Source: Psychromonas aquimarina ATCC BAA-1526 (lineage in GTDB: Bacteria > Pseudomonadota > Gammaproteobacteria > Enterobacterales > Psychromonadaceae). From it: a stretch of 64,000 nt of DNA. The notes under the pieces are model-generated. The model made no database searches. It saw nothing but the letters and a program-made list of their open reading frames with translations, and was not told the DNA's origin. The stretch is from NCBI RefSeq assembly GCF_000428725.1, contig NZ_AUAM01000024.1, positions 1-64,000 of the forward strand. Reading direction: 5' to 3'. The translations under genes and the position numbers were made by a program. Within the stretch, counting starts at the first letter, position 1. Every line of letters begins with the position of its first letter. This document shows positions 34,670 to 37,152 of this stretch, piece after piece.

Positions 34670-36082
34670 ATGAATAGAAGTATCCCATTATTTTTTCTGA
34701 GTAATTTTAAACGTTTTATCGACCGCTTTTTTACCCGTAAAAGCAGTGCGCTGCTTATCTGGTTATCGGTATTTATCGGTATCTTAGCCGGGATAATGTC
34801 GGCACTGTTTGATCACGGTATTGTCTGGGTCAGTGAGTTTCGACTGGAGTTTATAAGCAGCTACAGTGATTCGCAGGTTCCCCTGTGGCTGATTGCTGTT
34901 CCGGTTTCATCGCTAATGGCGGGACTGGCTTTTTATATTACTCATAAATTTGCGCCTGAAGCCGGCGGCAGCGGTATTCCGGAAATTGAAGGGGCGATGG
35001 AGGGCATGCGCCCGGTGCGCTGGAAGCGGGTAATTCCGGTTAAATTCTTTGGCGGTTTGTTAGCTCTAGGCAGCGGTATGGCACTGGGAAGAGAAGGGCC
35101 TTCGGTGCAGTTGGGGGCAAATGTCGGGCGAATGATTTCTGATCTTTTTAAAGTGAACAAAGTTGACAGTCAGGCTTTACTGGCAGCCGGTGCAGCCGGC
35201 GGTCTGGCGGCTGCATTTAATGCACCGCTGGCCGGTATTATGTTTGTTATCGAAGAGATGCGTTCACAGTTTAACTACAGCTTAACTTCGACTAAAAGTG
35301 TGTTTATGAGCGCCGTGATGGCGACTATAGTGATGCGCCTGATCACTGATCAGGATGCTGTGGTCAAGGTTACCTATTATTCACATCCGGACTTATTATC
35401 CTTATGGTTATACCTGCTCCTGGGGTTCTGTTTCGGGGTGATCGGTATTTTATTTAATAAAATGATCCTGGCGACTCAGGATATGTTTCTGTTTGTTCAT
35501 AAAAACCAGCGCTGGCGTTTTGTTGCTGTCGGCCTGTTTTTAGGGGCCGCTTTTGGTGCTTTATCTGTGATTGAACCTGATCTGGCTTTCAGCGGTCTGT
35601 CACTTATTCCTAACGTAGAGGGCGGGCACTACCTTGCCGGCGGTTTACTGGTTATCTTCCTGTTTCGAATTCTGACCACACTGCTGAGTTTCGGTTCCGG
35701 TGCACCCGGCGGCGTTTTTGCACCGACTTTAGCTCTGGGAACACTATTCGGCATGCTGTTTGGTCTGGCCGCTCACGCGCTGTTTCCTGAGATAGTGACA
35801 GAAGCAGGCACCTTTGCTATTGCCGGTATGGGCGGGTTATTTGCCGCCACAGTACGTGCACCGATTACCGGAATTTTACTGGTTATTGAGATGACCAGTA
35901 ATTATGAAATGATTTTACCCTTAATTGTAACCTGTTTAGGTGCGACTATGGTTGCTCAGTCCCTTGGCGGGCGCCCTATATATACGCAGTTATTAGAACG
36001 GACTATGAGACTGTCTATGCGTCAGAAGCGTCAGGAGCAGACACGTAAAGCTATGTTCCGTGTATCGCAGAAAGATAAATAG
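34670..36082 (+). CDS. clcA: ClC-type H+/Cl- exchange transporter
   Basis: 470 aa, full length. Selectivity-filter motifs are GGSGIPEIEGA (about 99-109), GREGPSVQ (about 140-147) and GSGAPGGVFAP. The gating Glu142 and the internal proton-path Glu196 (FVIEEMRSQF) are both present, as is the Tyr in GGRPIYTQLLERT, so it should be a proton-coupled exchanger rather than a channel. Known role: acid resistance and charge balance. The ribosome site is weak. The last 46 bp, including the stop, are copied again 90 bp downstream, which is odd. Confidence 0.95.
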   Translation: MNRSIPLFFLSNFKRFIDRFFTRKSSALLIWLSVFIGILAGIMSALFDHGIVWVSEFRLEFISSYSDSQVPLWLIAVPVSSLMAGLAFYITHKFAPEAGGSGIPEIEGAMEGMRPVRWKRVIPVKFFGGLLALGSGMALGREGPSVQLGANVGRMISDLFKVNKVDSQALLAAGAAGGLAAAFNAPLAGIMFVIEEMRSQFNYSLTSTKSVFMSAVMATIVMRLITDQDAVVKVTYYSHPDLLSLWLYLLLGFCFGVIGILFNKMILATQDMFLFVHKNQRWRFVAVGLFLGAAFGALSVIEPDLAFSGLSLIPNVEGGHYLAGGLLVIFLFRILTTLLSFGSGAPGGVFAPTLALGTLFGMLFGLAAHALFPEIVTEAGTFAIAGMGGLFAATVRAPITGILLVIEMTSNYEMILPLIVTCLGATMVAQSLGGRPIYTQLLERTMRLSMRQKRQEQTRKAMFRVSQKDK

Positions 36083-36172
36083 CAGGCTCGTACGGTGAGC
36101 TGCCGCGCGGCGTAGAAAGGTAAACAGCAGACACGTAAAGCAATGTTCCGTGTATCGCAGAAAGATAAATAG
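36037..36172 (+). repeat. direct repeat of the clcA 3' end
   Basis: Bases 36037-36082 (last 15 clcA codons plus TAG) recur at 36127-36172 with a single mismatch (T to A). The offset is 90 bp, a multiple of three. Sequence just before each copy is also partly alike, so the duplicated block may once have been longer. The second copy lies outside the gene and ahead of the broken coiled-coil gene. Confidence 0.9.
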
Positions 36173-36197: not shown

Positions 36198-37052
36198 ATG
36201 AAACGCTTAAAAAATAGTTTTATAAAATGGCTGCTTACTGCCGTGCTGTGTTTATTACTTGGTTTTTTGCTGGGTAAGTTTAAGCAGGATATACTGCAGG
36301 GCTCTTTAAGCGCAGTGAAAATAGAACTGCAGAGCATGCAGGTTGAAAAAGTAGAGCAAGTTAAACAGATTGCGCATCTGCAGGCGCAGCGCCAGACTGA
36401 TCAGCAGACTATTACATCTTTAACTCAGGAAAATAAAAAACTTAATGAAGCGTTGAGGCTGTAGAATAACTCATTTTTTATAAACTTTGGAAAATGTACG
36501 ATTTTAACTTGTTGTTTTAAATGACAATAAAAACACGAGAAAGTATGTTTTTTCTGAAAATGGAGAAATTCTACAGCCTCGTTAAATGCAGTCTCAAATA
36601 AGTTGTATTTTTATGAGCGGGTACTTGCACCGGAGCTGGAAGTCTCAGGAGTAAAAGTTCACTCATTTACTGTTGTTGAAGATTTTGAAGCTGGACGCTG
36701 GGATTACGAACTGGTATTAATGCAGGCGCAGAAAGGACGGCGTTTTTTAAACGGGCGCCTGGAAATATCTTTTTCCGTTTCAGATCAGCAGGAGCTTAAA
36801 CGTATTTCTTTAAAAGAATTGAGCGACAAGGTTCCGTCTGGTTTTAAGTTCAGGTATTTTCAGACAATAAAAGGTACATTTAAACTGCCGGCGAATATAA
36901 CGGTTGATGAAGTTATCATCGATCTTAAGGTCAAGGGCGATCGCTGGTATAAAGCACAGCAGTTAGAACAGCGTTATGACTGGCGGGCATTAATCGAAAA
37001 AGATGCTGCTGATTTTACTGAGTTTGATAAACCTGTACCTGCTGGTAATTAA
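36198..37052 (+). pseudogene. DUF6776-like membrane coiled-coil protein, split by a small insertion
   Basis: The 5' part (36198-36464) encodes a membrane segment (about residues 11-26) and a Gln/Glu-rich coiled coil, then stops at TAG. The 3' part (to 37052) encodes YFYERVLAPELEVSG and a beta-rich domain, but opens only at a TTG without a ribosome site. Between them lies a 126-bp element with inverted ends and a 3-bp duplication. Removing 129 bp (element plus one GTT) joins the halves in frame through LNEALNAVSNKLYFYERV, giving 241 aa. A gene of this type between clcA and erpA fits related marine genomes from memory. The 3' half shows no further damage, so inactivation looks recent. Confidence 0.85.
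36455..36580. mobile_element. 126-bp miniature inverted-repeat element (MITE-like)
   Basis: The ends are inverted repeats: GAGGCTGTAGAAT on the left and its exact complement on the right, extending to 16 of 18 positions (both then reach CTC). The flanks are GTT at 36452-36454 and GTT at 36581-36583, a 3-bp target duplication. The inside is AT-rich with no coding frame, so it would need a transposase in trans. The end sequence and 3-bp duplication recall IS5-group elements, but that is inference from memory. Confidence 0.85.
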
Positions 37053-37152
37053 TTACAGCAGCGCATATTTTGAGAATGATTTTTCTTATACTTGAACTAA
37101 TTAGTCAGGTATTGGATAATATTACACTGTTTATATATTTTTAGAGGTTACC

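Follow-up and report, generated by a model that had tools for sequence, protein, structure and literature searches.

A 126-bp MITE sharing its ends with an IS1182-type insertion sequence interrupts a DUF6776 gene of Psychromonas aquimarina at a sequence resembling an integron attC 3' end

Introduction

In Psychromonas aquimarina ATCC BAA-1526, a gene between clcA and erpA is divided by a short segment with inverted-repeat ends. The locus raises the question of what this segment is, which protein moved it, and what directed it to this position. The DNA analyzed here, termed the window, is a stretch of 64,000 nucleotides (contig NZ_AUAM01000024.1, positions 1 to 64,000 of the forward strand). 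An earlier note on its sequence described the segment as a recently inserted, non-autonomous element. The reading favored here, with a probability of about 0.86, is that the segment is a 126-bp MITE moved in trans by an IS1182-type transposase that would favor the 3' end of integron attC sites, the window copy probably being an event outside the array at a look-alike of such a site. The attC preference of the element family and the off-array place of the window copy lie beyond the view of the earlier note.

The interrupted gene

The two gene fragments and their neighbors are arranged as follows.

34670..36082, + strand: clcA, upstream neighbor (ClcA, 631.7 bits; cut-off, 350)
36198..36464, + strand: 5' fragment of the DUF6776 gene, an open reading frame of 88 codons ending with TAG at 36462-36464 inside the element
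36588..37052, + strand: remaining 3' part of the DUF6776 gene, with an open frame up to the stop codon
37153..37503, + strand: erpA, downstream neighbor (ErpA, 193.2 bits; cut-off, 117)

The host gene is assigned to DUF6776, a Pfam family of unknown function, through its 3' part (E value, 5e-25). The first open reading frame is terminated by the TAG within the left end of the element. The host protein itself is truncated after 86 codons, with codon 86 completed by the first base of the element; a membrane-anchor-like N terminus and part of the coil are kept, and the 3' piece of the gene is without a start. Positions 36198 to 37052 comprise 855 bp, and the removal of 129 bp leaves 242 codons including the stop by hand calculation. 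The placement between clcA and erpA, the stop brought into the host frame, and the restored frame of 241 codons all agree with the earlier note. Taken by itself, the mutation in the window amounts to the simple loss of this DUF6776 gene.

The closest homologue, L028 in genome G016, is a single open frame. Aligned with this locus, the unaltered stretch of the window shows a single 129-bp gap at the element, which corresponds to the 126-bp element plus one target copy. The empty site contains the three-base target once, as ATT in place of GTT. The 5' and 3' pieces of the window are 75% and 82% identical to the matching parts of the G016 protein. The earlier note had proposed looking for a strain with an intact gene and a single GTT; a relative with an intact gene and a single target copy thus exists, and that copy reads ATT and not GTT.

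The same comparison bears on whether this lineage simply has two genes here, with the 126 bp as a normal part of them, which the earlier note had named as the finding that would overturn its view. Both fragments are open and translatable in principle. The 3' piece is matched in 21 of 24 genomes of the genus (the own genome and 20 of 23 others), and in those 20 other genomes the gene is covered by single open frames of 239 to 266 aa; the match is stop-free in 19 of these homologues and contains a stop in one. No match to the 3' piece is found in the remaining 3 of the 23 (G004, G006, and G022). Together with the gap against G016 and the copies of the element at unrelated places, these single frames make the existence of two genes extremely improbable, and an insertion into one gene remains the favored explanation.

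Two further observations concern the neighbors. The last 45 bp of clcA (36038-36082) recur with 1 difference at 36128-36172, which places a stray duplicate of the clcA tail just past the stop codon. A promoter-like match of its own precedes erpA at 37092-37120 (9/12), such matches being no commoner than in shuffled sequences.

The 126-bp element and its copies

The element and its borders consist of the following features.

36452..36454, + strand: GTT on the left side, one of the two copies of the duplicated 3-bp target, which in G016 occurs a single time and reads ATT
36455..36580, + strand: MITE of 126 bp, from direct reading and a repeat search; its left end corresponds to the end that adjoins attC elsewhere
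36455..36472, + strand: left terminal inverted repeat, GAGGCTGTAGAATAACTC, from the sequence
36563..36580, - strand: right terminal inverted repeat, GAGGCTGTAGAATTTCTC in minus-strand letters, identical to both ends of the insertion sequence in L151
36581..36583, + strand: GTT on the right side, the other copy of the duplicated target, from the sequence and the comparison with G016

The repeat search returns the element as pair I1, with arms at 36455-36484 and 36551-36580. The outer 18 bp of the left end and the opposite-strand letters of the right end are alike at 16 of 18 positions, and GTT stands on both sides, as first noted. The element resembles bacterial MITEs in its short size without room for a gene (126 bp, at most 42 codons, non-coding), in terminal inverted repeats common to a full insertion sequence (the 18 bp of the right end), in its many copies, and in the target duplication, evident from the empty site and from the paired GTT flanks that 42 of 54 distinct sites outside the window have (this set is defined below). 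It differs from bacterial MITEs in often lying exactly at attC in a fixed orientation.

Searches for other functions within the element gave little. Outward promoter matches are found on the + strand (9/12) and, across the right edge, on the - strand (10/12); this signal is no commoner than chance, as the whole stretch contains 3 such matches and shuffled sequences contain 3.0. No Rfam family reaches its gathering threshold in the ten loci of the own genome or in L119, L142, L143, and L167. The recurrence of the repeats between cassette-like genes suggested that they might be attC sites themselves. This was rejected, as the flanking GTT copies are direct and not inverted and the attC lies beside the element.

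The own genome contains eight matches to the element including that in the window, the seven others being whole or partial. Four of the latter are full length, with identities of 99, 89, 82, and 75%. The copy on contig C100 and the window element differ in a single base out of 126; another C100 copy, which is cut off, shows 0 differences over 91. Given this near-identity the window insertion looks young, in line with the recent event proposed in the earlier note. Among 60 genomes, matches occur in 17: the own genome, 15 of the 23 others of the genus, and, among 36 genomes of the order's other families, a single one. In that last genome, G058, the matches (including L024) are short, covering ∼30 bp of the element end at 87 to 90% identity, and perhaps belong to a related element.

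The autonomous partner

Relatives carry a full insertion sequence (IS) of ∼1.85 kb with the same ends as the MITE and a transposase of ∼510 aa. The copy in L151 measures 1847 bp, has identical ends of 18 bp, and contains one open reading frame of at least 100 aa (510 aa), an organization of a single long frame between terminal inverted repeats as found in the IS1182 family. Genome G023 contains six copies of the ∼1.85-kb element. The transposase matches the NCBIfam model transpos_IS1182 over residues 28 to 505 of 510 with 261.8 bits, just below the curated cut-off of 270. The Pfam families DDE_Tnp_1_6 (115.4 bits) and DUF772 (57.6 bits) are matched above their cut-offs, with further matches to Pfam DDE_Tnp_1 and, weakly, to NCBIfam IS5. 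MITE and IS have little in common beyond the outer ∼19 to 26 bp. Fifteen plasmid records stand among the matches listed, 3 of them at 65 to 75% identity and the other 12 at only 24 to 26%.

In the own genome, the IS is represented by a frame-broken copy on contig C64 and by fragments truncated at the ends of contigs C17 and C65, as a collapsed repeat would give; an intact autonomous IS is not seen there. The earlier proposal of a non-autonomous element moved by a transposase elsewhere in the genome therefore stands with respect to the MITE, its further copies, and a full IS with the same ends, which is located in relatives, with pieces and no intact copy in the own genome.

Position of the copies at attC sites

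Left flanks of other copies look attC-like, with the order ...TAACAAGG....CCGCTTAATGCGGCGTT, the element, and GTTA.... From the fetched loci, 59 attC-like sequences were gathered, and 17 of these, ending in GTTA and with no element behind them, were picked by hand for a covariance model. This model, R1, built from element-free sites, was searched over 78 loci. Adjacency was defined as an R1 match of at least 25 bits with its 3' end within 1 base of the element edge, and the test covered attC sites with the 3' end facing the element. Of 58 paired elements, 54 sites remain once the window element and the nested pairings L124 501, L150 698, and L171 439 are removed.

In this set, which is made up of elements with both ends, one-end elements being left out, and comes from loci picked by hand among the matches listed and not from a random sample, an R1 attC adjoins the element at 29 of 54 distinct sites outside the window. 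The proportion is 11 of 15 for elements above 1 kb and 18 of 39 for shorter ones. All 18 short attC-adjoining elements have the attC at the left end, in the same orientation as the window copy. In eight full elements with an intact long open reading frame and an adjacent attC, the attC is always on the side where the transposase gene has its 5' end. Hairpin energy as a test for attC was abandoned in favor of the covariance model as a weak discriminator: bottom-strand folds of the left flank reach z scores below -3 at 18 of 54 sites, compared to 2 of 54 right flanks and 6 of 150 control pieces.

The own genome encodes an integron integrase (454 bits) and contains 48 R1 matches. The element copies on C100 (2448), C23, and C1 and the IS end on C17 adjoin attC, and that on C6 does not. 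Pieces of a second, broken integron integrase are found at G000:C24:1715-2236, near attC matches at C24:396-837. Among the 24 genomes of the genus, 21 contain an integron integrase above the cut-off.

A check on unpicked sites used three one-contig genomes, G023, G006, and G011, whose elements are partly among the 54. These genomes hold 22, 20, and 14 R1 attC sites, respectively (56 in ∼11 Mb). A search for the end pattern with both ends gives 13 elements (9 in G023 and 2 each in G006 and G011), and 9 of the 13 adjoin an R1 match (6 of 9, 1 of 2, and 2 of 2, respectively). Two of the three exceptions in G023, L158 (761527-763372) and L159 (1299108-1300953) on G023:C1, have a common flank that is not attC, and ∼560 bp separate one of them from an integron integrase gene that starts at 1301511. 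The common flank and this distance suggest that these two IS copies may sit at attI. The third exception (3093600) lies elsewhere.

An ordinary MITE with a preference for no more than GTT or CGTTA would be tied to attC through survival, array insertions causing little damage, and not through targeting. In favor of this view, 25 of the 54 sites are without an adjacent R1 match of 25 bits; some of these copies, such as those in L162, L139, and L122, lie elsewhere by eye. The base-exact placement at the 29 sites, with the MITEs in one orientation, and the concentration of 9 of 13 elements on so few attC sites argue against it. Survival in a region does not account for one exact position and one orientation, and this alternative is considered improbable compared with targeting of the attC 3' end by the transposase.

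The target in the window

The target of the window copy can be described as one further feature.

36441..36454, + strand: attC 3'-end look-alike and presumed target, CTTAATGAAGCGTT, with the A standing behind the element

The core of this target, CTTAATGAAGCGTTA, has 1 mismatch to the consensus of the other sites, CTTAATG[A/C]GGCGTTA, over a 15-bp core that was chosen post hoc. A scan of both strands of the window gives 2457 GTT sites. None of them comes closer to this consensus than 2 mismatches, one has 3, and 13 have 4; the sole site with 2 mismatches is the occupied target itself, read with the G of the element next. By a 28-column matrix covering both flanks and derived from 44 GTT sites, the window target is equaled or exceeded in score by 11 of 127946 positions, so that it ranks as a good site but not as the top one by this longer measure, a point in favor of the ordinary MITE discussed above.

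Within the 64-kb window, R1 finds no attC at E values up to 10 with default filters. On the contig of the window, R1 matches come no nearer than a pair at C21:72299-72930, which lies beyond the window at a distance of ∼36 kb. The fold of the left flank is unremarkable (z score, -0.5). The orientation of the window copy fits the rule of the other copies. Judged from these sequence comparisons, the best reading is that the window insertion represents an off-target event at a look-alike outside the array, which suggests that the 3'-half sequence of an attC can suffice as a target without the hairpin.

The integron integrase IntI cuts between the G and the TT of its site, and the insertion of a cassette thus also leaves GTT on both sides. 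The 129-bp unit, made up of TT, the element, and G, could accordingly be an unusual mini-cassette placed by the integrase at a secondary GTT site; many copies are located exactly at such cassette joints, and the own genome encodes the enzyme. Against this, the flanks read GTT...GTT and not AAC...GTT, which leaves the unit without an R''/R' pair of its own, and no attC of its own is recognized by R1 in the window even at an E value of 10. The same ends also bound the 1.85-kb element with its own DDE-type transposase, and in G011 a full IS lies at attC, yet no integron integrase above the cut-off is found there. Placement by the integrase is accordingly held to be slightly less probable still than the survival of an ordinary MITE, and movement by the transposase is preferred.

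Related insertion sequences in other genera

Related IS were compared in ten named loci, all with a recognized left IS end (L178 to L185, L195, and L202). An attC lies at the transposase-start end in six of them: L178 (the same record as L154), L179 from Colwellia, L180 from an uncultured source, L182 from Pseudoalteromonas, L183 from Marinomonas, and L202 from P. piscicida. Two of the ten, L185 (Alteromonadaceae) and L195 (Catenovulum), have the attC at the other IS end, and two, L181 and L184, show no R1 attC at the edge, the flank of L181 being attC-like at its end by eye. In L197 (Catenovulum), in which the right end only is in view, an attC is found there. The orientation of the IS relative to attC is flipped in L185, L195, and L197, that is, in an Alteromonadaceae MAG and in Catenovulum. 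The left end is not found in L203 (Pseudoalteromonas), and no R1 match stands at its edge. The distant IS1182 controls L204 (Paraburkholderia) and L205 (Bernardetia) give no R1 match, R1 being built on marine sites and the control a weak one.

Comparison with known elements

The full element shares with the IS1182 family, of which IS1272 is a studied member, the transposase family matches and the terminal inverted repeats. Insertion at palindromes or stem-loops is reported for some IS1182 members, and IS1272 reportedly replaces its target inverted repeat or hairpin, with no target duplication (PMC5678879). The element described here differs in duplicating GTT and keeping its target.

Insertion at one end of attC is described in excerpts for the IS1111-attC group, which includes ISKpn4, ISPst6, and ISPa21 (PMC11187229, PMC11616780). 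These elements have a DEDD transposase, subterminal repeats, and an RNA-guided choice of target (PMC11187229). The element studied here likewise inserts at one attC end, as seen at the 29 sites, and differs in its IS1182-type protein, its terminal repeats, and its GTT duplication. Its transposase matches DDE_Tnp_1_6, DUF772, DDE_Tnp_1, IS1182, and weakly IS5 models in place of the DEDD transposase of IS110/IS1111. On these family assignments, the MITE/IS group works like the IS1111-attC group but is not a member of it.

Group IIC-attC introns are another type of mobile element found at attC, and they differ as retroelements with another mechanism. In L142, a group II intron 3' end at 527-601 adjoins the MITE (37.3 bits, below the gathering score of 40; E value, 4.3e-5). 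A tRNA origin considered for the odd left flanks of L119, L142, and L143 was dropped, the flank in L142 being this intron end. The order attC, reverse-transcriptase-like pieces, and MITE is seen at L207:1569-3735; the frames in L206 (near 3107) and L207 are taken by eye to be reverse transcriptase. Two kinds of attC-seeking elements thus seem to be stacked at one site in L207.

Among the titles and beginnings of abstracts listed in a literature survey, no report of attC targeting by IS1182-type elements was recognized. In the excerpts of the nearest papers naming IS1182 together with integrons or attC (PMC10057117, PMC9137128, and PMC9908598), no attC targeting by IS1182 is described: PMC10057117 describes IS1182 next to tet(E) in a "mobile gene cassette" without using the term attC, and the other two list IS1182 and no more. 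Attraction to attC is known for IS of the IS1111 group, and within this survey its occurrence in an IS1182-type element is the new part.

Proposed mechanism and implications

In the proposed mechanism, an IS1182-type transposase with its own ∼1.85-kb elements of the same ends would move the MITE in trans. This transposase would prefer the 3' end of the integron attC (R' box, ...GCGTT before A), joining the element behind GTT in a single orientation with duplication of GTT. The half-site L'/R' would be the feature recognized. The R' box has the consensus GTTRRRY. Read together, the left GTT and the GAGG at the start of the element would give GTTGAGG, which fits this consensus except for the last base. 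Owing to this GAGG, little of the upstream attC should be lost; the site may still function, and the element would ride at the head of the following cassette as its 5' end. The window copy would have landed outside the array, with the DUF6776 gene sequence mimicking an attC 3' end.

A wider reading is given slightly better than even odds. Here, a marine gammaproteobacterial clade of IS1182-type elements would have become specific for attC, and perhaps for attI, as in the two G023 copies, independently of IS1111. The transposase would read L'/R' in double-stranded form and rebuild the R' box, and IS and MITE would ride as cassette 5' ends without disabling the cassettes. The off-target copy in the window would then be a sign that the half-site suffices without a hairpin.

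If this is true, targeting of cassette joints by IS1182-type elements represents a second solution to life in arrays, unrelated to that of the RNA-guided IS1111 elements. The nearly intact upstream attC suggests that the element hitch-hikes with cassettes and does not break them. The element spreads a repeated sequence through the arrays, which could recombine. The off-target copy in a gene of the core region is a natural experiment on what the transposase recognizes.
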